Below are positions 3,653 through 27,716 of a stretch of 64,000 nt of DNA, one piece after another. The notes under the pieces are model-generated. The model made no database searches and was not told the DNA's origin. It was given only the letters and a program-made list of their open reading frames with translations. This DNA is from Phreatobacter aquaticus (GTDB lineage: Bacteria; Pseudomonadota; Alphaproteobacteria; Rhizobiales; Phreatobacteraceae): contig NZ_CP039865.1 of the NCBI RefSeq assembly GCF_005160265.1, forward strand, positions 4,240,828-4,304,827, in the 5' to 3' direction. Position 1 is the stretch's first letter; each line of letters begins with the position of its first letter. Both the position numbers and the translations under genes were made by a program.

Positions 3653-3918
3653 CGTGTGGCATGAGCGGAGCTAGCCGCTCGACTCCCATGCCGGCAACCT
3701 GATTTTCCTCTGACAGCACCCGCCCAAACGTAGCAATGCCAAGCCCGCGTCATCGACTTGGGGCGACAAGCTAAATTTCCGATACTAGGTTGTGGAACTT
3801 AGAGAGGCGCTGCAAACTCATTCAGCAGCGCCGGAATGCGGACCGTTTCAATGAATTTTGATCCCATATTGAAGTACGTACAGCAGAAACTTGGAGGGTA
3901 TCTCCCCCCCCCGTAGCC

Positions 3919-4539
3919 ATGTTTATATTTGGAATTGGATGTAGTTTTGGATTCGTATTCCTAGATGATAAAATTGAGAAACTCATATTCTCATTTTTTA
4001 ATTATTTTAGTAGGACACCAAATGATATTGGATGGATTATATCCACGGCATCTGTATTTTGGATATTGGTGAAATTTTTCTACGAATCTACGAATATAAA
4101 CGAAAAAACATTCTCTGGTGTTTATCACTCCACAATACAAACAGATTCACATGGGATTGAACGTAATTTTGCGAAAAATTACAATTTCGACAATATTTTT
4201 TGCGACCTTCACGATACTGCACAGTGGCGCCGATTGATCAGCGCAAGCTTGATAGACCTTGATGATGTCGTAAAAGAAGCACTGAGACATCACCCACGAC
4301 GCAAGGATTTTTACAGAAACCTTGATGAATTAACTACACATATGGAATTTTACATCAGAACATCTACGCTAAAAGGTAGAAAGAATTGCTATAATATAAC
4401 TGGATTTGGATATATTGTAGATGAGAACGCCGCCAAAGGCCTTTCCGGATTCTTCGGCGTGCACGTTGTTAAGTCTGCGAAAAATTCTGAGTTCAATATT
4501 CTATCAGTTAATAATTTAAAAGAAAGGGTTTTTTTCTAA
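3919..4539 (+). CDS. AT-rich two-TM protein of unknown function, likely truncated by frameshift
   Basis: The frame encodes 206 residues with codon use completely unlike its neighbours (one sampled 60-base line at 4081 is about 32% G+C in an otherwise roughly two-thirds GC region). Two hydrophobic segments come first (about residues 1-15 and 37-54, the latter WIISTASVFWILVKFF). A soluble part follows with a helical middle (residues 85-125) and a beta-looking end (ITGFGYIVDEN, GLSGFFGVHVVK). The frame stops just after a run of seven T; shifting by one base there continues the protein to 4751. I do not recognise the family. Flanking IS6 relics and composition point to horizontal transfer. Confidence 0.6.
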   Translation: MFIFGIGCSFGFVFLDDKIEKLIFSFFNYFSRTPNDIGWIISTASVFWILVKFFYESTNINEKTFSGVYHSTIQTDSHGIERNFAKNYNFDNIFCDLHDTAQWRRLISASLIDLDDVVKEALRHHPRRKDFYRNLDELTTHMEFYIRTSTLKGRKNCYNITGFGYIVDENAAKGLSGFFGVHVVKSAKNSEFNILSVNNLKERVFF

Positions 4540-4751
4540 TATATGGCAAAGTAATAGCCATTGAAATGCAGCAAATTATTGATCCATTTTCTCAAAATCA
4601 ATCATCTAGATTTGTATTATTATTTGTAATAAAAAGAGACATACTGCAAAGAGAGCGGGTGTTTAGTTCTGGAATATTCTGCACGTATAACAAGGAGACC
4701 AATAAATTTATTCCGTCCTGTTACACTAGCAATATGTCACTCGTCCGATAG
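4530..4751 (+). pseudogene. Out-of-frame C-terminal continuation of the AT-rich gene
   Basis: Directly after the T7 run, the neighbouring frame reads FFLIYGKVIAIEMQQIIDPF and then an alternating hydrophobic segment (RFVLLFVIKRDILQ, FSSGIFCTYNKET) up to TSNMSLVR and a stop. Composition and style are the same as the preceding frame, so it is best seen as the true C-terminus of one protein of about 277 residues, separated by a single-base change in a homopolymer. Whether this is a real mutation, a sequencing slip or transcriptional slippage cannot be decided from the sequence. Confidence 0.55.
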
Positions 4752-14054: not shown

Positions 14055-14345
14055 GCTCCGGCAGCGCCGAATTGACGCCACTCGGCAAGAGCAGCGATGC
14101 GTCCGTCCTTGAATGTCTGTCTCCTAGTGTATGCGTTCCTGGTTGAAGTGGTTGTGGATCGAGCCGTGATGAGCGGCGAATTTCTGCAAAACGCGCATTC
14201 GCCGGAACCTCAGCATGGCTCATTCACTTCGTCGGACGGTTGGTGAGGCTTCTTCGCGCGGTGGATGGGCCAGCGCCCAACTCGCTTGTCGATCGCGGCG
14301 AAGATCACTGAAAAACAGTTCCGCCAGAACCGCTTCCCATCGCTC
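14055..14345 (-). pseudogene. IS6-family transposase remnant with internal deletion and frameshifts
   Basis: Minus-strand reading gives KRFWRNCFSVIFAAIDKR joined directly to GRWPIHRAKKPHQP. Then, in another frame, come AMLRFRRMRVLQKFAAHHGS and IHNHFNQER, followed after a further shift by RQTFKDGRIAALAEWRQFG. The first block is the IS6 segment before the catalytic core and the rest is the C-terminus. The DDE core is deleted, and there are at least two frameshifts plus a stop. It is the same family as the relics near 3.5 and 4.8 kb. Confidence 0.75.
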
Positions 14346-14530
14346 TTGTGCATTTGAACCCGCATCGCGGTCGGGCAGAAACAGCTGCCCCCTTTTCGCC
14401 TTCGCCATGTGAACTGCCCTGCCCTCTGAACAGGACCGAGCATTCGACTGACGCTCCCCGGAGCTCAACCCTCTTGATTTGTCGCGGATGGGCATTGCGG
14501 GCGGATACCGTACAATGTCAGTTTCATCGG

Positions 14531-15214
14531 ATGAATACGCTCGTTGCCGCACCAAGCCTGGTCAAACCATCAGTCGGAGAATCGACCTATCGTCGGATCA
14601 GGTCCGCGATCGTGTTCGGCGCCCTCGCCCCCGGTCAGAAGCTCAAGCTCGATCACCTGCGGGGCGAGTTTGGCACCAGCATCTCGACGCTGCGGGAGCT
14701 TCTCAGCCGCTTGGCGTCGGAAGGTCTGGTCTCGGCGGAAGGCCAGAAAGGCTTCGAGGTTGCGCAGGTCTCGATCTCCAACCTGGCGGAGATCGCGGAG
14801 ATGCGGCTGTTCCTCGAACAGCACGCGATCGAGCTGTCATTCGCGCATGGCGATCTCGAGTGGGAGGGGCGCGTTGTTGCCGCCCATCACAAGCTCTCCC
14901 GCATCGAGCGAGCGCTGATCGGCGGCACCACAGTCGATCCATCCGAATGGAAGCACTATGACTATGAATTCCACCACAGCCTGATCTCGGCCTGCGGCTC
15001 GACCGAGCTCATGGAAATCCATAGCGACATCTACGACAAATATCTGCGATATCAGATGGTTGTCGGAATTTTCCGTGGCAAGCCGGCAGCACTCGAACAT
15101 GCGGAGCTGCTGGCCTGTGCGATGGATCGCAAGACCGACCGCGCCCGCCAGATCCTGGCGACCCATATCCGGGATTGCGTCGAGGCGATCATCGCCCGCC
15201 GCGCCCTGTCCTGA
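14531..15214 (+). CDS. GntR-family (FCD/FadR type) regulator, first of tandem pair
   Basis: 227 residues: winged helix at about 15-80 (ESTYRRIRSAIVFGALAPGQ; STLRELLSRLASEGLVSAEG) and an all-helical FCD effector domain (EIAEMRLFLEQHAIE; metal-site type histidines in EFHHSLISACGS). The ATG giving MNTLVAAPS fits the family; the frame is open much farther upstream. It is closely similar to the next gene, which begins 12 bases downstream. The position at the head of the quinate cluster suggests control by quinate/shikimate pathway intermediates. Confidence 0.9.
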   Translation: MNTLVAAPSLVKPSVGESTYRRIRSAIVFGALAPGQKLKLDHLRGEFGTSISTLRELLSRLASEGLVSAEGQKGFEVAQVSISNLAEIAEMRLFLEQHAIELSFAHGDLEWEGRVVAAHHKLSRIERALIGGTTVDPSEWKHYDYEFHHSLISACGSTELMEIHSDIYDKYLRYQMVVGIFRGKPAALEHAELLACAMDRKTDRARQILATHIRDCVEAIIARRALS

Positions 15215-15226
15215 GCGGCTGCCGCC

Positions 15227-15898
15227 ATGAGCCAGGACATTTTCGAAACCGCCGGCGAGAATGCCTATCGGCGCATCCGCGTCGACATCATCACCGGCCA
15301 CCTTCCTCCCGGCCAGAAGCTCAAGCTGGACAATCTCCGACGAGATTATGCGGCAAGCGTCAGCACCTTGCGGGAGATCCTCAACCGTCTGGTCTCCGAG
15401 AAGCTGGTCCTGGCCGAAGGCCAGCGCGGTTTCGAGGTCATGCCAATCTCGGCAGCGAACCTCCGCGAAATCGCGGCGTTGCGCCAATTGCTCGAATGCC
15501 ACGCGCTGCGCCAGTCCTTCGCCCATGGCGATGTCGAATGGGAGGCGCGCGTCATCGGCGCCCATCACAAGCTCTCCCAGATGGAAGCGCGGATGGCCGC
15601 AGGCGACCGGACCAATACCGATCTGTGGAAGCGCTTTGACTGGCAGTTCCATCAGGCGCTGGTCTCCGCCTGCGGATCGCAGGTGCTGCTTCACGCCCAT
15701 GCCGCCGTGTTTGAGCGCTACCTGCGCTACCAGATGATCGCACTGAGCTATCGTGGAGCCATCGCGGCAGCCGAACATCTCGCCATGAAGGAGGCCGCCC
15801 TGGCCCGCGATGCCGATGCCGGTTGCGCGCTGCTCGAGCGCCATATTGCCGGCGGTGTCGACCATGCCCTGGCCACAGGCGCCATCGGCGGCGCCTAG
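15227..15898 (+). CDS. GntR-family (FCD/FadR type) regulator, second of tandem pair
   Basis: 223 residues, colinear with the preceding regulator: ENAYRRIRVDIITGHLPPGQ, STLREILNRLVSEKLVLAEG, SFAHGDVEWEARVIGAHHKL and QFHQALVSACGS all have direct counterparts there. The pair therefore arose by tandem duplication. Only 77 bases separate it from the quinate/shikimate dehydrogenase gene, and a palindromic element sits in that gap. The two may form hetero-oligomers or have split effectors. Confidence 0.9.
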   Translation: MSQDIFETAGENAYRRIRVDIITGHLPPGQKLKLDNLRRDYAASVSTLREILNRLVSEKLVLAEGQRGFEVMPISAANLREIAALRQLLECHALRQSFAHGDVEWEARVIGAHHKLSQMEARMAAGDRTNTDLWKRFDWQFHQALVSACGSQVLLHAHAAVFERYLRYQMIALSYRGAIAAAEHLAMKEAALARDADAGCALLERHIAGGVDHALATGAIGGA

Positions 15899-15911
15899 GT
15901 TGTTTTCTTGA

Positions 15912-15921
15912 ATATCCGATA
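15912..15921. promoter_or_regulatory. Candidate GntR operator upstream of quinate dehydrogenase gene
   Basis: ATATCCGATA, followed by the related CCGATATAACGGAT (15926-15939), lies in the 77-base gap before the dehydrogenase start. The same core occurs as the perfect palindrome-like ATATCGGATAT upstream of the TRAP receptor gene at 23212-23222. Sharing between the two ends of the quinate cluster supports a common regulator. Confidence 0.45.
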
Positions 15922-15975
15922 AAAGCCGATATAACGGATGCTTGTGGCGCCGCACGCGGCGTATGGAGCACGCCC

Positions 15976-16836
15976 ATGCGGGATGTCCGTCTCGGTCTGA
16001 TCGGCGACAAGATTGCCCGCTCCCGGTCGCCCGACCTGCACCGGCTCGCGGGCCAGCTCTGCGGCCTGAACGTGACCTATGACCGCCTGATCCCACCCGA
16101 ACGCGGCCAGAGCTTCGACCAGGTCTTCGACCACTGCCGCGACACCGGCTATCGCGGCGTGAATGTCACCTATCCCTACAAGGAAACCGTCGTGCGGCGC
16201 CTGGGCACGTTGCCGCCGGCTCTCCAGCAGCTCGGCGCCTGCAACACCGTCGTCTTCGGCGAGGGGCTGCCTACCGGCGCCAATACCGATTCCACCGGCT
16301 TTGCGCGGGGGTTCCGCACGCGCTTCCCCGGGGCCCAGCCTGGCATCGTGGCCATGGCCGGCACCGGCGGCGTCGGCAAGGCCATCGCCTTTGCGCTGGC
16401 CTCGCTTGGCGCCAGTGAATTGCGCCTCTGCGATCCCGACAGCGACAAGGCGCAGGGACTGGCGCAGGCGCTAAAACCCCTTTCCGACACGATGCGGATC
16501 GTGATCGCACCCGACATGCAGTCGGCATCCGAAGGCGCTGACGGCCTCGTCAACGCCACCCCTCTGGGCATGGACGGGGTCGGCGGCAACGCGGTGCCGA
16601 CATCGGCGCTTGCCGGACGCCACTGGGCCTTCGACGCTGTCTATACGCCAGAGGAAACGGCCTTTCTCATCGAGGCCCGCGCCTCTGGCCTCGCCATCAT
16701 GAGCGGCTTCGAGCTGTTCCTGTTCCAGGGCATCGATGCCTTCGCGATCTTCACCGGCGAACAGATCGATGCCGAGGCACTGCGTGCCGAACTCGCCCGG
16801 GCAGCCGACACCGCCGAACTCTCGCAGGCCTCGTGA
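15976..16836 (+). CDS. Quinate/shikimate dehydrogenase (AroE family, probably catabolic and NAD-dependent)
   Basis: 286 residues. It shows the substrate serines (SRSPDLHRL), the catalytic lysine motif NVTYPYKETV and NTDSTGF with the catalytic aspartate. The Rossmann loop AGTGGVGKAIAFAL ends in RLCDPDSDKA; an acidic residue after the second strand, rather than the NRT-type basic motif, favours NAD over NADP. It would oxidise quinate to 3-dehydroquinate and/or shikimate to 3-dehydroshikimate. Its stop overlaps the next start by one base (TGATG), indicating coupling to the dehydroshikimate dehydratase. Confidence 0.88.
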   Translation: MRDVRLGLIGDKIARSRSPDLHRLAGQLCGLNVTYDRLIPPERGQSFDQVFDHCRDTGYRGVNVTYPYKETVVRRLGTLPPALQQLGACNTVVFGEGLPTGANTDSTGFARGFRTRFPGAQPGIVAMAGTGGVGKAIAFALASLGASELRLCDPDSDKAQGLAQALKPLSDTMRIVIAPDMQSASEGADGLVNATPLGMDGVGGNAVPTSALAGRHWAFDAVYTPEETAFLIEARASGLAIMSGFELFLFQGIDAFAIFTGEQIDAEALRAELARAADTAELSQAS

Positions 16837-18737
16837 TGAAGACCTCGATTGCAACCGTCTCCATCAGCGGAACCCTGCCGGAAAAGATCGCCGCCATTGC
16901 CGCGGCCGGCTTCGACGGACTGGAATTGTTCGAACAGGACTTCCTGACCTTTGATGGCGATGCAGCCACCGTGCGCCGCATGATCGCCGATCACGGTCTG
17001 AGGCTGACGGTGTTCCAGCCGTTCCGCGATTTCGAGACGCTCCCCGAGCCCCAGCGCCAGGCCGCCTTCGACCGGGCGGAGCGCAAGTTCGACCTGATGC
17101 AGGAACTCGACACCGATCTGATGCTGGTCTGTTCGAGCATCTCGCCCCTGGCCCTTGGCGGCATTGACCGGGCCGCAGCGGATTTCCATGAACTCGGCGA
17201 GCGCGCCGCCAGGCGGGGCCTGAAGGTCGGCTATGAGGCGCTCTGCTGGGGGCGCCACGTCAGCGACCATCGCGACGCCTGGGAGATCGTGCGGCGCGCC
17301 GATCACCCCTCCATCGGACTGGTGCTGGACAGTTTCCACACGCTCGCCAAGGGCATCGATCCCCAGACGATCCGGGCGATCCCGAAGGACAAGATCTTCA
17401 TTATCCAGCTGGCCGATGCGCCGCTGATCCATATGGATCTGCTGCACTGGAGCCGCCATCTGCGCAACATGCCCGGCGAAGGCGACCTGCAGGTCGGCGC
17501 CTTCGTGCAGGCGGTCTGCGCCACGGGCTATGACGGCTATTTCTCGCTGGAGATCTTCAACGACCAGTTCCGTGGCGGCTCGGCCCAGGTGGTGGCCCAT
17601 GATGGCAAGCGCTCCCTGGTCCAGCTGATGGATCAGGTCCGGCGCGATCTGCCCGGTGTCGCGGTTCCAGCCGCCCCCATGCCCGACCGCGCCCTGGTCC
17701 ATGGCGTGGAATTTGTCGAGTTCGCGGCCGACGAGACGCGCGCCGCGGCGCTGGGCGAAGCGCTGCATGCGCTCGGCTTCCGCAAGTCCGGTCGCCATCG
17801 CTCGAAATCGGTCGATCTCTACCGCCAGGGCCAGATCAACATCGTGGTCAATACCGAGCGCCAGGGCATGGCGCATTCCTCCTTCGTCGCGCGCGGCGCC
17901 TCGGCCTATGCGATCGGTCTGCAGGTCGATGACGCCAAGGCGACGTTGGAGCGCGCGGTCGCGCTGGGCGCGACGCCGTTCGACCAGGAGCCCAATCCTG
18001 GCGACATCCGCATGCCCGCCATTCGCGGCATTGGCGGCAGCGTGATCTATTTCGTCGACCGCTCAGCCGATCTGGTGCAGCTCTGGGAGCATGAATTCGT
18101 CAATGTCGAGGATAGCGACAGGCGTGCGGATGGCGGTCTGGAGCGGATCGACCACGTCGCCCAGACCATGTTCATCGACGAATTGCTGACCTCGCTCCTG
18201 TTCTACACGTCGCTCTTCGCGGTGAAGAAACTGCCCATGGTCGACGTGGTCGATCCCGGCGGCCTGGTGCGCAGCCAGGTGATCGAGAACGAGCGCGGCG
18301 GTTTGCGGCTCACCCTGAACGGCGCAGAGAACCGCCGCACGCTTGCCGGGCACTTCCTGACCGAATTGTTCGGCGCGGGCATCCAGCACATTGCCCTGTC
18401 GTCGAGCGACATTTTCCGGACAGCCTCAGCGCTGGCCGCCAACGGTTTCAAGCCGCTGGCCGTCTCGCCGAACTATTACGACGATCTCGCGGCCCGCTTC
18501 GCGCTGCCGCCCGATCTGGTCCGCCGGCTGGCCGAGGCCTCCCTGCTCTATGACCGCGACGACTCCGGCGAGTTCTTCCAGCTCTACAGCCGGGCCGGCG
18601 ATGACGGCTTCTTCTTCGAGATCGTCGAGCGCCGTGGTTACAAGGGCTATGGCGCCGCCAATGCGCCCTTCCGCATCGCCGCCCAGAAGCGCAGTCTGCC
18701 GCCGGTCACCCTGCCCCGGGCGCTGACGCAGCCCTAA
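16836..18737 (+). CDS. quiC: 3-Dehydroshikimate dehydratase, two-domain QuiC type
   Basis: 633 residues, as in Pseudomonas QuiC1. The N-terminal sugar-isomerase-like TIM barrel (1 to about 285) carries E134 (GYEALCWG), D165 (LVLDSFHT), Q191 (IIQLADAP) and E239 (FSLEIF), the expected metal-ligand set for converting 3-dehydroshikimate to protocatechuate. The C-terminal part (about 285-620) is a vicinal-oxygen-chelate region like 4-hydroxyphenylpyruvate dioxygenase, with an H440, H518, E595 metal triad still present. A preceding GTG is also possible as start. The protein links the quinate pathway to aromatic ring cleavage; pca genes are not in the window. Confidence 0.93.
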   Translation: MKTSIATVSISGTLPEKIAAIAAAGFDGLELFEQDFLTFDGDAATVRRMIADHGLRLTVFQPFRDFETLPEPQRQAAFDRAERKFDLMQELDTDLMLVCSSISPLALGGIDRAAADFHELGERAARRGLKVGYEALCWGRHVSDHRDAWEIVRRADHPSIGLVLDSFHTLAKGIDPQTIRAIPKDKIFIIQLADAPLIHMDLLHWSRHLRNMPGEGDLQVGAFVQAVCATGYDGYFSLEIFNDQFRGGSAQVVAHDGKRSLVQLMDQVRRDLPGVAVPAAPMPDRALVHGVEFVEFAADETRAAALGEALHALGFRKSGRHRSKSVDLYRQGQINIVVNTERQGMAHSSFVARGASAYAIGLQVDDAKATLERAVALGATPFDQEPNPGDIRMPAIRGIGGSVIYFVDRSADLVQLWEHEFVNVEDSDRRADGGLERIDHVAQTMFIDELLTSLLFYTSLFAVKKLPMVDVVDPGGLVRSQVIENERGGLRLTLNGAENRRTLAGHFLTELFGAGIQHIALSSSDIFRTASALAANGFKPLAVSPNYYDDLAARFALPPDLVRRLAEASLLYDRDDSGEFFQLYSRAGDDGFFFEIVERRGYKGYGAANAPFRIAAQKRSLPPVTLPRALTQP

Positions 18738-19606
18738 CCGGCGAACATCGGCTCCGGCAGCCCACGCACGCCCGGCTCGATGGCCAGAAGCGCGCCGGCG
18801 AGCGGTTCCGCCGCGAGTTGCTCGGCGCTGAGGAACTTGCGCGCCGTCGAGATGTAGAGCGTTGCGAGATCGTCGCCGCCGAAGCACAGGCAGGTGGGAT
18901 TGGTGACCGGCAGGCAGATCACCTGGTCGAGCGTCCCGTCTGGGCGATAGCGCGCGATACGGCTGCCGGAGAACATGGCGATCCAGACATGGCCCTCGGC
19001 ATCGATACAGGCGCCGTCCGGCCGGTCGCGCGTCGCCGAAAAGTCGACGAAGACCCGCCGCCGGGACAGCGTGCCCGAGGCGGAATCCAGATCGTAGGCC
19101 CAGGTGACGAACCGGCGCGTATCCGAGACATAGAGCGTGCGCTGATCGGGGGAGACCGCGATCGTGTTGGAGACAATGATATCCTGGGCGTGCCGCCTCA
19201 CGCTGTGGTCGGCGGCCACGCTGTAGAGCGCGCCGCGCGGTTCGCTGAGGCCGACATCCATGGTTCCGACCCAGAACCGGCCCTGCGCGTCGCAGCGGCC
19301 GTCGTTCAGCCGGTTTTGTGCACCGGTTTCGACATCGCACAGATGATCCAGCCTGCCGGTCTCGGGATCGAAGGCATGGAGCGCCAGATTCAGCGCCAGG
19401 ATGAGGCCGCCCGACTGGCGCAGCGCCAGCGAGCCGAGGAAATCGGTCTCGAACGGGAAAACGCGATAGTCCCCGGTTTCGGGATGAAAGGCCTGGAGCT
19501 TCGGCTGTTCGATGTCGAGCCACCAGACGGAGCGTGTCCGCGGACACCAGAGCGGCGTTTCACCCAGCAGATTCTGTGCGTCGACGACGCACCGCACGTC
19601 GGTCAT
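18734..19606 (-). CDS. SMP-30/gluconolactonase-family lactonase
   Basis: 290 residues forming a six-bladed propeller: LGETPLWCPRTRSVWWLDIE (metal-binding glutamate), QNRLNDGRCDAQGRFWVGTM (substrate/metal Asn-Asp), VSNTIAVSPDQRTLYVSDT and RPDGACIDAEGHVWIAM. Family members hydrolyse sugar-acid or related lactones. It ends tail-to-tail with the dehydratase gene (4-base overlap) and is the last gene of the minus-strand half of the quinate cluster. A role on a lactone form of quinate or shikimate is only a guess. Confidence 0.88.
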   Translation of the reverse strand: MTDVRCVVDAQNLLGETPLWCPRTRSVWWLDIEQPKLQAFHPETGDYRVFPFETDFLGSLALRQSGGLILALNLALHAFDPETGRLDHLCDVETGAQNRLNDGRCDAQGRFWVGTMDVGLSEPRGALYSVAADHSVRRHAQDIIVSNTIAVSPDQRTLYVSDTRRFVTWAYDLDSASGTLSRRRVFVDFSATRDRPDGACIDAEGHVWIAMFSGSRIARYRPDGTLDQVICLPVTNPTCLCFGGDDLATLYISTARKFLSAEQLAAEPLAGALLAIEPGVRGLPEPMFAG

Positions 19607-19643
19607 GCCACCGTCTCCCTCGCCGCGGCCCACCAGAGAGCTC

Positions 19644-20084
19644 TCAGGGCTTGCGCCCGAGGGCGTGGGCTGCCGCCTGCATGGCCAGGATATAGCCATA
19701 GGGACCGGCGCCGCAGATGACCGTCGTCATCGCGGCCGACAGCTTGGAATGGCGATGCATCTCGTCGCGGGCATGGATGTTCGAGATATGGACCTCGATG
19801 ATCGGCCCCTTGAACACTTTCAGGGCGTCGAACATCGCAACCGACGTGAAGGAATAGCCGGCAGGATTGATGATCAGCGCGTCGGCATTCTTGCGCGCGG
19901 CCTGGATCATGTCGACGAGCACGCCCTCGTGGTTCGACTGCTCGAACACCAGGCTGGCGCCCAGGCGGGTGGCACAGGCCCGGCAATCCGCCTCGACATC
20001 GGCAAGCGTCGTCGTGCCATAGATGTGGGGCTCGCGCTCGCCGAGCAGGTTGAGGTTCGGCCCGTTGAGAATGGTCAGTCGCAT
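19644..20084 (-). CDS. aroQ: Type II 3-dehydroquinate dehydratase
   Basis: 146 residues, full length for the dodecameric type II enzyme. It starts MRLTILNGPNLNLLGEREP, with the catalytic tyrosine in HIYG and the flexible-loop arginine just before it. QSNHEGVLVD, NPAGYSFTSVA and EVHISNIHARDEM carry the active-site Asn, Ser/Thr and His positions. It converts 3-dehydroquinate to 3-dehydroshikimate. Placement between a TRAP transporter and the lactonase, facing QuiC, indicates a catabolic paralogue rather than the biosynthetic copy. Confidence 0.94.
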   Translation of the reverse strand: MRLTILNGPNLNLLGEREPHIYGTTTLADVEADCRACATRLGASLVFEQSNHEGVLVDMIQAARKNADALIINPAGYSFTSVAMFDALKVFKGPIIEVHISNIHARDEMHRHSKLSAAMTTVICGAGPYGYILAMQAAAHALGRKP

Positions 20085-20144
20085 GCCCTGCTCCCGTGAA
20101 ATGGCGCGGTGATCGTGTCGGCGGTCAGCCGACTGCGGAAAGGG

Positions 20145-21425
20145 TCAGACCCCGAACCAGCGGGCCGGCACCATGACCAGCGCGGGAAACAGCACCATCA
20201 GGGCGAGCACGATCAGCTCGGCCACCATGAAGGGCCAGGAGGCGCGAATGAGGGCCCCCATGGGAATGCGCGCAACGCCCGCCACCACGTTCAGCACCAC
20301 GCCGACCGGCGGCGTGATGAGGCCGATGGAATTGTTGATGATGAACAGGACGCCGAAATAGACGGGATCGATGCCGGCCGCCTTGACGATCGGCATCAGG
20401 ATGGGGGTGAGGATCAGAATGGTCGGCGTCATGTCGAGCGCGGTCCCGACGATCACGACCAGCACCATGATCGCCGCCATGAGCAGGATCTTGTTGCCCA
20501 TGAAGGGCTGCAGGAAGTCGACAACCTGGTTGGCGATCTCCGACACGGTGATGAGCCAGGACGAGACCAGAGCCGCCGCCACCAGGAACATGACCACACT
20601 GGTGGTCAGCGCCGCGCTGACCAGAACCCCATAGAGCTCGGACAGTTTCAGCTCGCGGTAGATGCAGGTGGCAACAAACAGCGAATAGACGGCGGCGACC
20701 ACCGCGGCCTCGGTCGGCGTGAACACGCCGAATTTCAAGCCGAAGATGATGATCAGCGGAAGAACGAGCGCCCACGCGCCGTCGACAACTGCCCTCCAGG
20801 CTGCGGCCCAGCTCTGCTTCGGCGGCGGCACGATGTCCTCGCCGCGCGCCACCCACCACCAGGCAATGGCGAGCGCCATGCCGATCATCAGTCCCGGCAC
20901 GATGCCAGCGAGGAACAGTTTGGTGATCGAGACGCCGCCGACCACGCCGAAGATGACGAAGCCGATGCTCGGCGGGATCACCGGCCCGATGACGCCGGCC
21001 GCCGCGATCAGGCCGCCGGAGCGCGCCTTGTCGTGGCCGGCCTTCGTCATCATCGGGATCAGCAGGGCCGACAATGCCGCGGCATCCGCCACCGCCGAGC
21101 CCGACAGCGCCGAGAGGATGCAGGCGGCCAGGATCGCGACATAGCCGAGCCCGCCTCGGACATGGCCGATGAAGACGAGTGCCACATTGACGATGCGCCG
21201 TGACAGGCCGCCGGTGTTCATCACCTCGCCGGCGAGGATGAAGAACGGCACCGCCATCAAAGGAAAGCTGTCGGCGCCATTCAGGATGTTCTGCGCAATG
21301 ATCTGCGAATCCGAGATGCCCATCTGGTGCATCAGGGCAACGCCGCAGATGATCAGCGCGAAGGCGACGGGCATGCCGATCGCCATGGCACCGATGAGCG
21401 AGAAGGTGAAGACCGCGATCGTCAT
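20145..21425 (-). CDS. dctM: TRAP transporter large permease (DctM)
   Basis: 426 residues and about twelve hydrophobic segments. Typical family stretches include MTIAVFTFSLIGAMAIGMPVAF, LMAVPFFILAGEVMNTGGLS, PPSIGFVIFGVVGGVSI and LITPPVGVVLNVV. It is the sodium-coupled transport subunit in the inner membrane. With DctQ (gap 40 bases) and DctP it forms a complete TRAP system, here presumably for quinate, shikimate or a related hydroxy acid. Confidence 0.94.
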   Translation of the reverse strand: MTIAVFTFSLIGAMAIGMPVAFALIICGVALMHQMGISDSQIIAQNILNGADSFPLMAVPFFILAGEVMNTGGLSRRIVNVALVFIGHVRGGLGYVAILAACILSALSGSAVADAAALSALLIPMMTKAGHDKARSGGLIAAAGVIGPVIPPSIGFVIFGVVGGVSITKLFLAGIVPGLMIGMALAIAWWWVARGEDIVPPPKQSWAAAWRAVVDGAWALVLPLIIIFGLKFGVFTPTEAAVVAAVYSLFVATCIYRELKLSELYGVLVSAALTTSVVMFLVAAALVSSWLITVSEIANQVVDFLQPFMGNKILLMAAIMVLVVIVGTALDMTPTILILTPILMPIVKAAGIDPVYFGVLFIINNSIGLITPPVGVVLNVVAGVARIPMGALIRASWPFMVAELIVLALMVLFPALVMVPARWFGV

Positions 21426-21465
21426 GCGAGCCTGCCGGAGGCGCTGTAGAGGATGCTCGCCATGA

Positions 21466-22002
21466 TCACTTCCGCACCGAGGTGACGTCGCCGAGCAATT
21501 CCTCGGATTCCGCCACCGCCACCATCTCGTCCTCGCTGGCCCGGCCGGTGATTACGCGCCAGAGATCATAGAGGAGCACGACGCCTGCCGAGAGGCCGAA
21601 GACGACGCCGGCGAGATAGAACAGACCGACCGAGAGATTCGTCGCTGGCGCCCGGTCGCCCGCGGTGATCAGCATCTGCTTCCAGCTGCCGAGAAACAGC
21701 AGGCTGTCGGCATAGAGCATGAGCCCATAGCTCGTCACGAAGCACGCGCGCTTGCCCCAGGCCGGCAACGCCCTGACCAGCGTGTCGACGCCGAGATGGG
21801 CGTGCTGGCGCAGCGCCACCACGGCGCCGAGGAAGATCATCCAGACAAACAGCCAGCGCGACAGTTCCTCCGAGATGGTGATCCCGGAATTGAACCCATA
21901 GCGCAGCACGACATTGCCGAAGACGAGCACCACCATCACGACGAGGAAGAGCGCGATCAGGGCCTTGAGGCCCTCGCAATAGAGATCGATGATCCGTCCC
22001 AT
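21466..22002 (-). CDS. dctQ: TRAP transporter small permease (DctQ)
   Basis: 178 residues with four hydrophobic segments (ALIALFLVVMVVLVFGNVVLR; SRWLFVWMIFLGAVVAL; LLFLGSWKQM; AGVVFGLSAGVVLLYDLWR) and the conserved SEELSRWLFVWMIFLG motif. It is the accessory membrane subunit of the TRAP system, encoded between DctP and DctM. Confidence 0.92.
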   Translation of the reverse strand: MGRIIDLYCEGLKALIALFLVVMVVLVFGNVVLRYGFNSGITISEELSRWLFVWMIFLGAVVALRQHAHLGVDTLVRALPAWGKRACFVTSYGLMLYADSLLFLGSWKQMLITAGDRAPATNLSVGLFYLAGVVFGLSAGVVLLYDLWRVITGRASEDEMVAVAESEELLGDVTSVRK

Positions 22003-22086
22003 CGGTCGGTCCTGCCTTCGGGGGGCGCGCGGCGGTAACAGTCCGCCGGCCGGCGCCCGGAAACCGGGCGACCGGCCAGGTCGGAT

Positions 22087-23112
22087 TCAGAGCTTCTGGA
22101 CGCGCTCGAGCTCGGCGTTGAACAGGCGCACCTTGGCCTGATCGAGGTCAGCGGAGAACTTGGCCGCCACCGGCCGGGTGGCCGTGCGGATGCGGGCCAT
22201 TTCGGCAGGTGCGATCTCGTTGAACTGCATCCCCTTGGCCTTCAGCTCGCCCAGGGACTCGGTATCGGCCTTCAGCGTCACCTCGCGCTGATAGTCGCGG
22301 CTCTCGTTGACCGAGTCCTGGATCAGCTTGCGCTCGTCCGCCGACAGCTGGTCCCAGAATTTCTTGCCGATGGTGATGATATTCTGGGTGTAGGTGTGAT
22401 TGGTCGCCGACAGGAACTTCTGCACCTCGAAGAACTTGTTCGACAGGATCACCGAATAGGGGTTCTCCTGCCCGTCGATCGTCTTGGTCTCGAGCGCGGT
22501 ATAGACCTCACCGAAATTCATCGGAACGGGATTGGCGCCGAGTGCCCGGAACGTGTCGAGATAGACCGGATTGGGAATGACGCGCAGCTTCAGGCCAGCA
22601 AACTCTTCCAGCTTGGTGATGGCCGTGCGGCTGTTGGTGACATTGCGGAAGCCAAGTCCCCAATAGCCAAGGCCGATCAGGTCCTTCTCCGGCAGGGTCT
22701 CCAGCATGGCCTTGCCGAACGGGCCCGTGATCAGGGCTTCGGCTTGGGCCGAGGATCCGACAATGAACGGGAAATCGAGCAGGCCGAAATCCTTGACGAC
22801 CGTCGCCAGCGACGTGGTGGAGGCCGAGAACATTTCCTGCGTGCCACCGCGCAGCGCCGATTGCTGCTGCATCTCGTTGCCGAGCTGGGAGGCTGGGAAT
22901 TCGCGGATCCGGAGCTTGCCGCCGCTCTTGGCCAGCAGCACCTCGGCGACCTTGCGCACGCCAAGGCTGGTCGGATGGCCCGGATTGTTCAGGTGGCCCC
23001 AGCGGATGGTCCGTTCCTGAATGCCCTGGGCTGGGGCGCGAACGGTTGCGGCAACGGTCAGGGTCGAGACTGCGCCGGCCAGAACGGCGCGGCGGCTGAG
23101 GCGGCTCTTCAT
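22087..23112 (-). CDS. dctP: TRAP transporter periplasmic solute-binding protein (DctP)
   Basis: 341 residues with a Tat-type leader (LSRRAVLAGAVST). The mature DctP fold includes RWGHLNNPGHPTSLGVRKVA and the substrate-anchor region FAGLKLRVIPNPVYLDTFRALGANPVPMNFGEVYTAL, with the conserved arginine in KLRVI that pairs with ligand carboxylates. It is the first gene of the minus-strand TRAP/aroQ/lactonase operon and has an operator-like palindrome about 100 bases upstream. Confidence 0.93.
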   Translation of the reverse strand: MKSRLSRRAVLAGAVSTLTVAATVRAPAQGIQERTIRWGHLNNPGHPTSLGVRKVAEVLLAKSGGKLRIREFPASQLGNEMQQQSALRGGTQEMFSASTTSLATVVKDFGLLDFPFIVGSSAQAEALITGPFGKAMLETLPEKDLIGLGYWGLGFRNVTNSRTAITKLEEFAGLKLRVIPNPVYLDTFRALGANPVPMNFGEVYTALETKTIDGQENPYSVILSNKFFEVQKFLSATNHTYTQNIITIGKKFWDQLSADERKLIQDSVNESRDYQREVTLKADTESLGELKAKGMQFNEIAPAEMARIRTATRPVAAKFSADLDQAKVRLFNAELERVQKL

Positions 23113-23211
23113 GTGTTTGCTCCCCGGATTATGTCGTTATTGGCCTTGAGTATCCACTCGGAGCCTTCGCGTTTCAATAGGCAATTGCGACTTCAGCATA
23201 CGAATTCAAAA

Positions 23212-23222
23212 ATATCGGATAT
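23212..23222. promoter_or_regulatory. Candidate GntR operator upstream of dctP
   Basis: ATATCGGATAT, about 100 bases upstream of the DctP start, is the reverse complement of the ATATCCGATA core found before the quinate dehydrogenase gene. It probably binds one or both of the tandem GntR regulators. Confidence 0.45.
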
Positions 23223-23390
23223 TACGGCCATCCCTCAAACCGGATTCAGGGGTGCCAACGGCAATCCGAGGGGTGCGGATTGCCTGTTCCGCACCGAGAC
23301 AGGCAGGCGCGGCAAACATCCTTCAACTTATTGACAAAACTAATCAATTCGAACCGCTCGCGAACTGGAACAGGCCCAACCCCTGAAAGC

Positions 23391-23719: not shown

Positions 23720-24967
23720 TTGCGCCCATTGCCCGCCTATCAATCCCACCCCGTCCCCGCCGATCCCTGTGGCGCGTTCGTCGCGTTCAATGAGCACATC
23801 CAGCCAGCCGCTAATGGCCCGCTCGCTGGAACGCGGTTCGCGCTGAAGGATCTGGCCGACACCATCGGCCGCCCGCCCAGTTGCGGGCTCACACGGCTGC
23901 CCTCTCCGCCCCCGGTATCGAATGCGCCGGTGGTCACGCGGCTTCTCGACGCAGGCGCAAGCCTGACCGGCTTCGCGACCATGACACCGCTCGCCTATGA
24001 GCCCTCGGGCGGCAATCCCGTGCAGGGGCGCCCACGCAACCCGTGGAGCGGCAGCCACATCTGCGGCGGCTCGTCGTCGGGCTCAGCGGTCGCTGTTGCC
24101 GGCCGGATGGTCGATTTCGCTATTGGCTCGGACACGGGCGGATCGCTGCGGATCCCCGCGCAATGCTGCGGCGTCGCAGCCTGGAAGCCCACCCATGGGC
24201 TCGTGCCTGTGGGTGGGACCATGGCGCTTGCGCCCTCGCTCGATACGCTCGGGTTTCTTGCCAACGATTGCGCTCTGCTCCTGGGTATCGCCCAGGTGTT
24301 CGACGCGGGTCCGCTTGCGCAGATTTCATCCGTCTGTGTGGCCCAGGACGTGGCCGCTTCGTGCGCGCCGGACATTGCGGCTGCGCTGGAGCGGGCGGTA
24401 TCGGCCCTTCGTTCGATCGGGCTGGATGTCCGCGAGGCAGCCCTTGCGCCGTTGATCAGCGCCTGCGATCGCCCCGTCATGACGGTGATGCAGGCGGAAG
24501 CGGCCAGGGTCAATCTGCCGCTGATCGAGGCAGGCAGCCTTGATCCGGTTCTCGCCACGCGGCTGCGGAAGGGTCTTTCGATTGATGACGAGACCCTGCA
24601 AGCGGCAACGACTGACCTGCAAACCCTCGCCGATGACCAGTGGCCGGCATTGCTCGGCGATGCCGACGCCGTTCTGCTGCCGGTCATGCGGATCAGCACA
24701 CCCAGGGTCGAGGTCTGCGAGCCGGCCTCGGCGTCGTTTTCCGCGCGCACCCTCTACGAACTCTCGGCGCTCACACGGTGGGTCAACGGTCTCGGCCTGC
24801 CCGCGGTCGCCATTCCCGTGGGTCTGGACGACGAGGGAATGCCCATCGCTATGCAGATTGTTGGACGCCGGGCCAGCGACCTCCCTCTGCTCAAGCTGGC
24901 CTGTTTGTTGCATCATGTATTACCACCCATGCCTTCGCCTCCAGGCCTCCCCGGAATGCCCAGATGA
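23720..24967 (+). CDS. Amidase signature family hydrolase
   Basis: 415 residues with the complete catalytic triad: K43 (FALKDLADT), S118 (CGGSSSGSA) and S142 (DTGGSLRIP), spaced as in the family. The C-terminus LPAVAIPVGLDDEGMPIAMQIV is canonical. It hydrolyses a carboxamide or similar bond in the cytoplasm. The start is uncertain because the frame opens with TTG. It precedes an ABC transporter of the NitT/TauT type, so the substrate is probably an imported N-containing compound. Confidence 0.88.
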   Translation: MRPLPAYQSHPVPADPCGAFVAFNEHIQPAANGPLAGTRFALKDLADTIGRPPSCGLTRLPSPPPVSNAPVVTRLLDAGASLTGFATMTPLAYEPSGGNPVQGRPRNPWSGSHICGGSSSGSAVAVAGRMVDFAIGSDTGGSLRIPAQCCGVAAWKPTHGLVPVGGTMALAPSLDTLGFLANDCALLLGIAQVFDAGPLAQISSVCVAQDVAASCAPDIAAALERAVSALRSIGLDVREAALAPLISACDRPVMTVMQAEAARVNLPLIEAGSLDPVLATRLRKGLSIDDETLQAATTDLQTLADDQWPALLGDADAVLLPVMRISTPRVEVCEPASASFSARTLYELSALTRWVNGLGLPAVAIPVGLDDEGMPIAMQIVGRRASDLPLLKLACLLHHVLPPMPSPPGLPGMPR

Positions 24968-25179
24968 ACCGCTCCGTCGCCTCCACAGCCCTGTCGCGGT
25001 TGCGCGGGCCTGATCTCGTCCGTCATCCGGAGGCTTCATGCGACATTGGCGCAGTGGACACCTTGGTGACCGCCTGTTTCGCTCGCGAGAATGACCGGGA
25101 AGGGCAGGCTTCCTTTCGCGAGAAGCATGCCCCCGGGCCACGATCCTGTTTGTTGATCAACGAAGGAGAGGGACTATGA
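24964..25179 (+). CDS. Possible small bridging ORF (71 residues)
   Basis: The ORF starts at an ATG that overlaps the amidase stop (ATGA at 24964-24967) and ends at a TGA that overlaps the next gene's ATG (ATGA at 25176-25179), filling the whole gap between two genes. The product (MNRSVASTALSRLRG... to NEGEGL) matches nothing I know and has no membrane segment. The double overlap is what coupled operon genes show, but a chance open frame in high-GC DNA is quite possible. Confidence 0.25.
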   Translation: MNRSVASTALSRLRGPDLVRHPEASCDIGAVDTLVTACFARENDREGQASFREKHAPGPRSCLLINEGEGL

Positions 25180-26141
25180 AACGCCGCACATTTCTTGCCG
25201 GAATCCCCGCGCTTGGCCTCGCCGCCACGATGGCGCGCCCGGGCCGCGCCCAAGCCACAACCTTGACGATCGGCTACCAAAAGGTCGGGCATCTCGCCCC
25301 GATCCTGGCCGCCGCCGATGAGTTGAAAAAGACCGGCATGGACGTGAAACTCGTCGAGTTCGTCCGCTATGCCGACGCGCGCACGGCGCTGCTGGCGGGT
25401 TCGCTCGATGTCGCGTCCGTCGGCCCCGCCGATCTCGCCATTTCGCTCGCCAACGGTTCGAACAGCATGATTGGCATCATGGGCGTCGGCGCCTCGCCCA
25501 AATATGTCATTGGCCGCACCGGCACCAAGTTCGACTCCTGGGACGACATCAAGGGCAAGAAGATCGCTATCGCTCCGGGCTCGGCCGTGTGGTTCCAGTT
25601 CGCAGCCACGCTGATCGAGAGGGGCATTCCCTACAGCTCGTTCACCGCCATCAACATTCAGGGCGCGGGCGCCAATCTCAACACCGCTCTTGAAAAGGGC
25701 GAGGTCGATGCGATCGTCACCTGGGAGCCGTTCGAAACGATCCCGGTGATGAAGGGCTATGGCTTCTTCGCCAAGAACCTCGACTATTCGATCTCCAAGG
25801 CGGTCGGCGCCGAACTCGGCATGCTCGTCGCGAACAAGGATGCCGTTGCGACCAAGCGTGCCGCCGTGCAGGCCTGCGTGACGGCCTATGTCGCCAAGAT
25901 GAAGGAACTCAGCGCCTCGCCCGCGAAATTCGGCCAAGCCATTGCCAGCATGACGGGCATTGAATTGCCGGTTTCGATGAAGATCGCCGAGATCATCAAG
26001 CTCGGGCCTGTCATCACGATCGAGCAGATCAAGGCGCAGGCGAAGGCGTTCAACGATCTCGGTGTCATCCCGAAGGATGTCTCGGGTGACATCGACAAAT
26101 ACTGGGATGGCTCGTTCCTCGCCGCGGCGATGAAGGCCTGA
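25176..26141 (+). CDS. ABC transporter substrate-binding protein, NitT/TauT type
   Basis: 321 residues with a twin-arginine leader (KRRTFLAGIPALGLAAT, cleavage near GRAQA). The body has the SsuA/TauA pattern: LTIGYQKVGHLAPILAA, FVRYADARTALLAGSLDVASVGPADL, KGKKIAIAPGS and GEVDAIVTWEPFE. It binds a small sulfonate-, nitrate-, urea- or pyrimidine-like solute in the periplasm. GAAGGAGAGGG supplies a strong ribosome binding site. Its stop overlaps the permease start. Confidence 0.92.
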   Translation: MKRRTFLAGIPALGLAATMARPGRAQATTLTIGYQKVGHLAPILAAADELKKTGMDVKLVEFVRYADARTALLAGSLDVASVGPADLAISLANGSNSMIGIMGVGASPKYVIGRTGTKFDSWDDIKGKKIAIAPGSAVWFQFAATLIERGIPYSSFTAINIQGAGANLNTALEKGEVDAIVTWEPFETIPVMKGYGFFAKNLDYSISKAVGAELGMLVANKDAVATKRAAVQACVTAYVAKMKELSASPAKFGQAIASMTGIELPVSMKIAEIIKLGPVITIEQIKAQAKAFNDLGVIPKDVSGDIDKYWDGSFLAAAMKA

Positions 26142-26950
26142 TGACCCTCTCGCATATGCGTCGCTGGCTGCTTGCCATCGTGCTGCCGGTCGTTGCGGTG
26201 GCGCTGTGGCAGGCGGCTGGCACCAATGGTTCGCTGGCCGGCGGTGCGCTGCCGACGCCGGACAGGGTGTGGAGCGCGTGGATCACCTGGGCTTTCGGCA
26301 AGCCCGGGCCGATGACGCTCTCGCCCTATGTCGGCTCATGGGCGGCGGCGGTCGGGTATTCGGCGGAGCGGGTGGCGAAGGGTTTTGCCGTCGCCATCCT
26401 GCTCGGCGTGCCGCTCGGCATTTTGATCGGCTGGTCGCGGATCGTGTCGGAGATGGTCGATCCGACCATCCAATGGCTGCGCCCGGTCCCGATCACCGCC
26501 TGGCTGCCAATTTCACTGGCGATTTTCGGCATCCGCGATTTTGGCGCGATCTTCCTCATCACCATCGGCGCGTTCTATCCGATCGTGATCAACACGACCC
26601 AGGGCGCCCGGGACGTGGACAAGAACTGGATCCGCGCCGCACAGATGATGGGCGCCAAACCGCTCGACATCCTGGTCCGCGTGGTCCTGCCCGCCGCCCT
26701 GCCATCGATCTTTACCGGCTTGCGCATCGGGCTTGGCATCGGCTGGACCGCCGTGATTGTCGCCGAGATGATCGCGGTGAAGTCTGGCCTCGGTTACGTG
26801 CTGTGGGATGCCTATTATGTCGGGCGCATGGACATCGTGATCGCCGACATGGTCTCCATCGGCTTGTTCGGGTTCCTGTCGGATTGGGCGATCGTGCGCC
26901 TCGAACTCTGGGCGCTGAAGTGGCGCCGCCTGCAATCGTTCAACCAATAG
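26141..26950 (+). CDS. ABC transporter permease, NitT/TauT type
   Basis: 269 residues and about six membrane segments, with the cytoplasmic EAA-loop motif GAKPLDILVRVVLPAALPS that docks to the ATPase. The start ATG overlaps the stop of the binding-protein gene (TGATG), so translation is coupled. It forms the inner-membrane channel with the following ATPase. Confidence 0.93.
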   Translation: MTLSHMRRWLLAIVLPVVAVALWQAAGTNGSLAGGALPTPDRVWSAWITWAFGKPGPMTLSPYVGSWAAAVGYSAERVAKGFAVAILLGVPLGILIGWSRIVSEMVDPTIQWLRPVPITAWLPISLAIFGIRDFGAIFLITIGAFYPIVINTTQGARDVDKNWIRAAQMMGAKPLDILVRVVLPAALPSIFTGLRIGLGIGWTAVIVAEMIAVKSGLGYVLWDAYYVGRMDIVIADMVSIGLFGFLSDWAIVRLELWALKWRRLQSFNQ

Positions 26951-26957
26951 GGCGCAC

Positions 26958-27716
26958 ATGGGCACGATCCAATTCTCCTTGGCATCGAAGACCTATCCGG
27001 GTGGCGTTCTGGCGCTCGAGAATGTCGACTTTACCGTTGGCGAGGGCGAATTTGTCGCCCTGCTCGGCCCATCCGGTTGCGGGAAATCGACCTTGCTCAA
27101 CCTGATCGCCGGGTTCGAGAAGCTGAGCGGCGGCCAGATGTCGTTCAACGGCGATGCCGTCGCCAAACCCGGCCCGGATCGTGGCGTCGTGTTTCAGGAA
27201 GCCTCGCTGCTGCCCTGGCTGAATGTCTGGGAGAACGTGGTCTTCGGCCCGAAGGTGCAGAAAACGCCGCGCGACATCTACGAGCCGCGGGCGCGCGAGA
27301 TTCTCCGCATCATGGGGCTGGAGGCGTTCCACGAGGCGCTGCCTGTCCAGCTGTCCGGCGGCATGCGCCAGCGGGTCGGCATCGCCAGGGCCCTGGTGAT
27401 GCAGCCGAAAGCGCTGCTGATGGACGAGCCGTTCGGCGCGCTCGACGCCCAGACACGGCTCTCCATGCAGGAATTGCTCCTCGACATCTGGCAATCGCTG
27501 AAGACCACCGTGCTGTTCGTCACCCATGACATTGACGAAGCGATCCTGCTCGCCGACCGGGTCTGCGTGATGACGGCAAGGCCGGGCCGGATCACCCGCG
27601 AAATCCCCATCGACATCCCCCGTCCGCGCAGCATCAACACGCTGACATCGGGAGATTTCACCACCTACAAGGCCATGATCATGGCCGAGATGCGCGGCCT
27701 TCACGCGCAGCATTGA
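26958..27716 (+). CDS. ABC transporter ATP-binding protein, NitT/TauT type
   Basis: 252 residues with Walker A GPSGCGKST, Q-loop FQEASLLPW, signature LSGGMRQR, Walker B ALLMDEPFGALD and switch His in FVTHDIDEA. Gap to the permease is 7 bases. It drives import of the module's substrate. Confidence 0.95.
   Translation: MGTIQFSLASKTYPGGVLALENVDFTVGEGEFVALLGPSGCGKSTLLNLIAGFEKLSGGQMSFNGDAVAKPGPDRGVVFQEASLLPWLNVWENVVFGPKVQKTPRDIYEPRAREILRIMGLEAFHEALPVQLSGGMRQRVGIARALVMQPKALLMDEPFGALDAQTRLSMQELLLDIWQSLKTTVLFVTHDIDEAILLADRVCVMTARPGRITREIPIDIPRPRSINTLTSGDFTTYKAMIMAEMRGLHAQH

Follow-up and report, generated by a model that had tools for sequence, protein, structure and literature searches.

Tandem 13-bp boxes in a 19-bp register as a probable GntR operator of a quinate cluster in Phreatobacter aquaticus

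Results

A ten-base core shared by two operons of a quinate cluster in the Phreatobacter aquaticus genome likely marks the high-affinity box of a tandem operator, on which dimers of the FCD-type GntR proteins encoded next door would bind side by side and repress transcription until an acid of the pathway releases them. Sequence comparison within the analysed stretch of 64,000 nucleotides (hereafter the window) and in related genomes establishes the boxes themselves, their spacing in a 19-bp register, the recurrence of both and an association with one GntR clade.

The shared core at two converging operons

As noted in the preliminary description, ATATCCGATA is present at 15912–15921 on the plus strand and as its reverse complement at 23213–23222 on the minus strand, and the two operons converge, with the quiC-like ORF ending at 18737 and the minus-strand SMP-30 ORF at 18734. 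The first copy lies 13 bp past the gntR2 stop and 54 bp ahead of the aroE-like start (15976), the second 100–110 bp ahead of the dctP start (23112, minus strand) and inside the palindrome ATATCGGATAT (23212–23222). The window holds no further exact copy, a mean of 0.02 copies being expected, and none of 100 dinucleotide shuffles reached two. The shared core is more than chance.

Throughout the 4.97-Mb genome the pattern ATATCSGATA occurs at five distinct places, two of them in the window (4 forward and 4 reverse matches; 0 and 1 for the reversed-pattern control). The two window cores have boxes of 6.1 and 5.6 bits at 19 bp distance, the best such neighbour of the remaining three reaches −2.8 bits, and two of these three score just 2.6–2.9 bits as 13-mers. 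Allowing one mismatch yielded 37 places per strand compared to 6 in the control, a search too loose to name further targets. As a separate observation, a perfect ATATCGGATAT lies between ORFs at position 1501 of locus L002 (G000:C1:1703202), without good 19-bp partners and preceding an ORF that by eye resembles an ABC-transporter permease.

Genes of the cluster

GntR1 (14531–15214, plus strand; Pfam GntR 3e-14, FCD 3e-14) and GntR2 (15227–15898, plus strand; GntR 1.1e-14, FCD 6.1e-16) both pass the Pfam cut-offs for both domains, assigning them to the FadR/FCD subfamily of the GntR family. The same strand encodes a shikimate/quinate dehydrogenase of the AroE family (15976–16836; NF009201 240.7 bits, cut-off 235) and a QuiC/QsuB-like 3-dehydroshikimate dehydratase with an HPPD-like part (16836–18737; AP_endonuc_2 and Glyoxalase_5), which carries the QuiC name by similarity because its 655 bits with NF042435 are under the cut-off of 1200. 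On the minus strand we located an SMP-30/gluconolactonase-like protein (18734–19606; Pfam SGL 1.4e-82), a type II 3-dehydroquinate dehydratase, AroQ (19644–20084; NF003806 198.8 bits, cut-off 171), and the TRAP transporter genes dctM (20145–21425), dctQ (21466–22002) and dctP (22087–23112), identified by the Pfam families DctM, DctQ and DctP. With an AroE-family dehydrogenase, a dehydroquinate dehydratase, a dehydroshikimate dehydratase and a carboxylate transporter found together, quinate cluster appears a fair name, given by similarity. Elsewhere in the genome, three genes belong to the Dioxygenase_C family (PF00775), which we take to contain the protocatechuate-opening enzymes.

In the alignment, the segments STLRELLSRL of GntR1 and STLREILNRL of GntR2, presumably the recognition helices, are almost identical, so that either protein may bind. 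The Asp and three His that we assume to form the metal/carboxylate site of the FCD domain are kept in GntR1, GntR2 and the other aligned rows, except for the Asp, which is replaced in E. coli GlaR and in the protein of locus L131; release by a ligand is suggested by membership of the FCD family. The GntR1 and GntR2 rows fall apart in a tree with 18 open inner branches out of 82 and with long branches for some rows; two identical rows from L061, probably an artefact of reading through to the next stop, were left unused.

Two features of the surroundings deserve mention. A terminator-like hairpin followed by a T-rich stretch lies at the gntR2 end (15877–15896), just ahead of the aroE operator, but is no commoner than in shuffles (1 found, mean 0.9). 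Past the dctP promoter, the opposite strand carries an amidase gene and an NMT1-type ABC transporter set (23720–27713), none of which is preceded by any of the best 12 window 13-mers.

A degenerate box and its 19-bp partner recur in related clusters

Searching 397 genomes of the order with GntR2 gave matches of at least 220 bits, comprising orthologues and paralogues, with the next at 163 bits. AroQ, QsuB or AroE was present in 46 of the 47 distinct in-order stretches with a GntR2-clade protein and in 15 of 17 stretches outside the order, as opposed to none of eight stretches of more distant FCD GntRs, indicating that the clade goes with these genes.

Before dctP, aroE or gntR, beside quinate/shikimate genes, a degenerate 13-bp box of about AATATC-N-GATATT recurs, in most cases accompanied by another at a distance of exactly 19 bp (13+6+13). 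We applied palindromic expectation maximisation to 62 promoter regions, with related species represented, and obtained AATATCNGATATT with a log-likelihood of 225 (12 shuffles: mean 53, maximum 61), a motif whose AATATC-N-GATATT form matches the box of the window. The regions before SMP-30 genes in L083, L085, L086 and L088 yielded no motif and were dropped, so that the register and composite analyses use 58 of the 62 regions. On these, a 36-bp palindromic composite of two boxes and a 6-bp gap reached a log-likelihood of 707, compared to 85–96 in eight shuffles. Many relatives carry TCATATGA, and we considered the even palindrome AATATCATATGATATT as a separate motif (width 16, log-likelihood 234.5 versus 225.1 for width 13); this two-motif idea was dropped because the 13-bp box with its 19-bp partner covers the TCATATGA sites and the composite scores far higher. 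Contigs L039–L042, identical to L049–L052, were left out, L058 and L059 were kept from motif training as near copies of L054/L055, and L062, L063, L068, L074 and L080 yielded no region for want of a suitable close neighbour.

We cross-validated the register by training on half of 18 relatedness groups, set by hand, and testing on the other half. In 34 of 58 regions the runner-up box was offset from the top one by exactly 19 bp, in the other 24 it lay elsewhere, and the mean score was +4.1 bits at 19 bp compared to −19.6 bits (sd 4.35) at other distances. Regions from outside the order, on which the profile was untrained, contained a box of at least 11 bits in 23 of 35 cases and no strong box in 12; a partner above 3 bits accompanied 12 of these 23 boxes at 19 bp, and none at 18 or 20 bp. 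In this set the gntR and dctP regions of L124 share their best boxes, as do those of L125, and each is counted twice, which adds nothing to the count of second-best boxes at 19 bp.

Every one of the 47 in-order loci, the majority of which had served for training, carries a composite scoring at least 20 bits close to a cluster gene, as do 19 of 23 loci outside the order (exceptions L126, L129, L140 and L142). At the stricter threshold of at least 28 bits, counted over 71 loci of which many belong to the training set, there were 77 matches in 86.4 kb of cluster promoters versus 12 in 1154.6 kb elsewhere. In many families the composite is found with GntRs of this clade, and it often occupies the gap between gntR and the adjacent gene. 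Loci of the same genus as the window carry the boxes AATGTCGGATATT (L050), AATGTCAGATATT (L051) and AATATCTGAGATT (L052) before dctP, and AATCTCATATGAA (L048), AATCTCATACGAA (L049) and ATTATCATACGAA (L050 and L051) before aroE. At L070, the dehydroshikimate dehydratase match at 14170–14637 is split into two short, overlapping segments, which may point to a disrupted or truncated gene.

The preliminary description had seen in the core a strong hint for one operator read by the GntR pair and had proposed a motif search in related clusters. That search showed the degenerate box with its 19-bp partner to be conserved and the literal core ATATCSGATA to be rare: among the 47 distinct in-order loci it stands before aroE in four close relatives only (L054, L055, L058 and L059), and a non-exhaustive look outside the order revealed it before dctP in L120. 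By sequence, the core does behave as an operator, holding the first two ranks in the window under a profile trained without its genus and recurring at related promoters. The need for a pair did not hold, as L054 and L055 keep the core before aroE with a single clade GntR in the 20-kb stretch. Two adjacent GntR matches on one strand were found at 14 of 47 in-order loci. Given the rarity of the literal core and the retention of the operator where only one GntR is present, reading by the pair is only partly supported; the proposal appears right in kind, and is widened here to probably three sites built of degenerate boxes in a 19-bp register, without need for a pair.

Probable operator arrays within the window

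For scoring the window we used a genus-free profile, from whose training the whole genus of the window had been dropped, leaving 46 regions. Over the 64 kb, the two core-bearing boxes rank first and second of all 13-mers; in 30 simulated 64-kb sequences the best 13-mer had a mean score of 13.8 bits (sd 1.8) and a maximum of 18.6 bits.

The best 13-mer, at 19.3 bits, is the strong palindromic box AATATCCGATATT ahead of dctP (23211–23223, minus strand). A weaker partner, TTCGTATGCTGAA, is located 19 bp nearer dctP (23192–23204, minus strand; 5.6 bits, 0.07% of positions as good), and the dctP composite is the best 36-bp composite of the window with 31.1 bits under the genus-free profile. A possible third phased box (23173–23185, minus strand; 0.2 bits, 0.27% of positions as good) overlaps the −35 element TTGAAA (23177–23172) of the predicted promoter TTGAAA-17-GATACT. 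The array thereby extends down to the predicted −35, with the strong box 34 bp upstream of it.

Ahead of the aroE-like gene, the strong box AATATCCGATAAA (15911–15923, plus strand) is second-best with 18.6 bits. This value equals the maximum of the simulated sequences, so that its location counts as much as the score in making the box convincing; a box is found at the equivalent place in L048–L051, and also before aroE in L054/L055. Its weaker partner TATAACGGATGCT, 19 bp downstream (15930–15942, plus strand; 6.1 bits, a score reached by 0.06% of window positions), holds a putative −10 element, TATAAC. A possible degraded third box, CGCCTAGGTTGTT, lies 19 bp upstream over the gntR2 end (15892–15904, plus strand; −6.2 bits, 1.1% of positions as good), and L048–L051 score 9.5–12.5 bits at the matching place. 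By eye we read a putative promoter TTGAAT-16-TATAAC (15908–15935, plus strand), which is missing from the promoter prediction because the rule applied wants a T at the sixth place of the −10. The strong box would fall mostly within the spacer of this promoter and the partner over its −10, and L048, L050 and L051 show equal promoter spacing with the strong box between the putative −35 and −10, likewise by eye. As a pair, the aroE boxes are weak, ranking 54th of 58 regions with 16.5 bits in the full set, and with the genus left out the composite is sixth in the window at 17.2 bits, where the best of 30 simulations reached 17.7 bits.

Composite ranks two and three in the window are occupied by false hits of up to 20.5 bits in AT-rich DNA at 3.9–4.6 kb. 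This DNA belongs to an AT-rich island (3850–4700) with long A and T runs, unlike the GC-rich DNA of the cluster, and may be foreign.

The third-best window 13-mer points to a likely third operator, absent from the preliminary description, the perfect palindrome TTCATCGGATGAA over the gntR1 start codon (14523–14535, plus strand; ATG 14531), whose 15.5 bits are within the simulated range given above. The exact TTCATCNGATGAA occurs once in the 4.97-Mb genome, at the gntR1 start (control 0). Located 19 bp upstream, the weak box GATACCGTACAAT (14504–14516, plus strand; 1.4 bits, a value equalled or exceeded at 0.21% of positions) shares bases with the putative −10 TACAAT of a weak promoter-like TGGGCA-16-TACAAT at 14489–14516, just before the gntR1 box (1 found, mean of 0.5 in shuffles). 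The gntR1 composite ranks fourth in the window with 18.7 bits under the genus-free profile (simulations reach at most 17.7). Five loci of the same genus show no strong box over or before gntR1 among their best, with one of 8.5 bits in L052. The box at the gntR1 start is probably an autoregulation site.

Proposed regulation and alternative explanations

In the model that we favour, each operator would be an array of 13-bp boxes with centres 19 bp apart, here one strong and one or two weak, with inner halves GATATT/AATATC and outer halves of about WTCATC. Such arrays stand ahead of dctPQM-aroQ-SMP30, ahead of aroE-quiC and, probably, over the start of gntR1-gntR2. GntR1 or GntR2 dimers would occupy adjacent boxes side by side, with probable cooperativity, and would thereby mask the promoters and repress the genes for uptake and breakdown. 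Release would follow once a pathway acid (quinate, shikimate, dehydroquinate or dehydroshikimate) is bound by the FCD domain. The position of the aroE box in the promoter spacer, the reach of the dctP array to the −35 and the gntR1 box over the start codon suit repression.

The main rival is activation, with the array upstream of the dctP −35 recruiting RNA polymerase once a pathway acid is bound. The strong dctP box, ending well upstream of the predicted TTGAAA, would be well placed for this, as would the aroE box of L053 and L057, which by eye also lies upstream of the likely promoter; evidence against an activator comes from the strong aroE box between the putative −35 and −10, as read by eye in the window, L048, L050 and L051, from the box covering the gntR1 start codon, and from the repressor role of both E. 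coli GlaR and P. putida CsiR. We regard activation as unlikely. Considerably less probable still is a reading of the boxes by another transcription factor encoded elsewhere, the GntR genes being mere neighbours: three more exact cores do exist elsewhere in the genome, but these lack good 19-bp partners, the composite tracks this GntR clade from family to family, often between gntR and its neighbour, and the more distant GntR set has a different box, ATTTTCGAAAAT.

A chance match of two AT-rich words has a negligible probability in our estimation. The motif is short, AT-rich promoters share words and single simulated sequences attain the score of the aroE box, yet the 0.02 copies expected in the window, the first and second ranks given to both boxes by independent training and the 19-bp register in the cross-validated set as well as in the untrained outside-order loci all argue against coincidence.

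Relation to known GntR systems

The best NCBIfam model for both window GntR proteins is CsiR/GlaR (NF008576), with 106.5 bits for GntR1 and 119.7 bits for GntR2, below the cut-off of 218. E. coli GlaR (CsiR) is reported as a repressor of the csiD/glaH operon that is released by glutarate, its footprint protecting TTGTN5TTTT and ATGTN5TTTT with six nucleotides between them (Knorr et al. 2018, PMC6265302); P. putida CsiR is likewise described as a repressor. The K-12 promoter reads TTGTGCGCATTTT TCAGAA ATGTAGATATTTT, the same 13-6-13 layout with other letters. Both systems thus share a GntR protein and 13-bp sites six apart, corresponding to the 19-bp register of the window clade, whereas they differ in the letters (WTGTN5TTTT versus ATC-N-GAT), in glutarate as opposed to quinate genes, and in the scores of the window proteins at about half the model cut-off. 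By analogy, the operator would work like a GlaR operator, and the proteins are not GlaR by the model cut-off.

For the FadR subfamily of GntR proteins, Suvorova et al. (2015; PMC4494728) report the operator consensus GT...AC, with exceptions that include BioR, and weaker half-sites 7–12 nt from GntR sites in 23 groups; the word quinate is absent from the main text of that article. The boxes described here resemble this subfamily in being A/T-rich palindromes with a centre of 0–1 base and in their additional weaker boxes, which are reported for 13 FadR-subfamily groups (PMC4494728). They differ in that the profiles have the core ATC-N-GAT instead of GT...AC, and a whole box at 19 bp instead of half-sites 7–12 nt from the centre. 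Several dimers of the E. coli GntR repressor NanR assemble cooperatively on repeated sites, but these are GGTATA repeats and NanR has a long N-terminal extension (PMC8012715). The window GntR proteins match the NanR model weakly (27.2 and 21.5 bits, cut-off 260). BioR, a regulator of biotin genes, differs by a ten-base motif without a central base. Its site TTATMKATAA also lacks GT/AC and is near TTATC-N-GATAA in its letters (PMC4494728).

Within the literature searched, by title and start of abstract, we found no earlier GntR account for quinate, TRAP transporters or quinate catabolism. What we describe is a well-supported new case of an already known type of switch, with the products of the regulator genes next door probably reading the boxes. 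For many Alphaproteobacteria it predicts both the regulator and the operator that would control quinate/shikimate uptake and breakdown. It also widens a layout known from a footprint at a single E. coli promoter to a register recurring across many families of a class. This recurrence makes the side-by-side assembly of FCD dimers directly testable, and a defined promoter/regulator pair is on offer for sensing quinate-type acids. A further extension, that GntR1 and GntR2 form a mixed assembly on one array sensing two acids and that the 19-bp register is general in the GlaR-like FCD branch with the letters changing, is speculative and, though it has some chance of being right, we consider it doubtful.

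Boxes of more distant FCD GntRs

The more distant GntR loci comprised eight stretches taken by hand and then 32 shorter stretches including those eight. In a sister group of FCD GntRs, comprising 20 loci of which one belongs to this genome, the box is different, the even palindrome ATTTTCGAAAAT. Partner offsets of 19 and 18 bp give the best means for this box, but the runner-up is placed at 18 bp in 7 of the 20 loci and at 19 bp in one. At 12 further distant loci with a AATTTCGAGATT-like box the best offset is 9 rather than 19, without a clear 19-bp partner. These data are only suggestive of a 19-bp register common to more distant GntRs, and the differing boxes indicate that operator letters vary by clade. 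The sister-group gene of the same genome (G000:C1:4818962-4819582; L095, L185) is preceded by ATTTTCGAAAAT and ATTTTCGAAATT, 129 bp apart, and adjoins genes for a malate/lactate dehydrogenase, an alpha/beta hydrolase and a glyoxalase-family protein.
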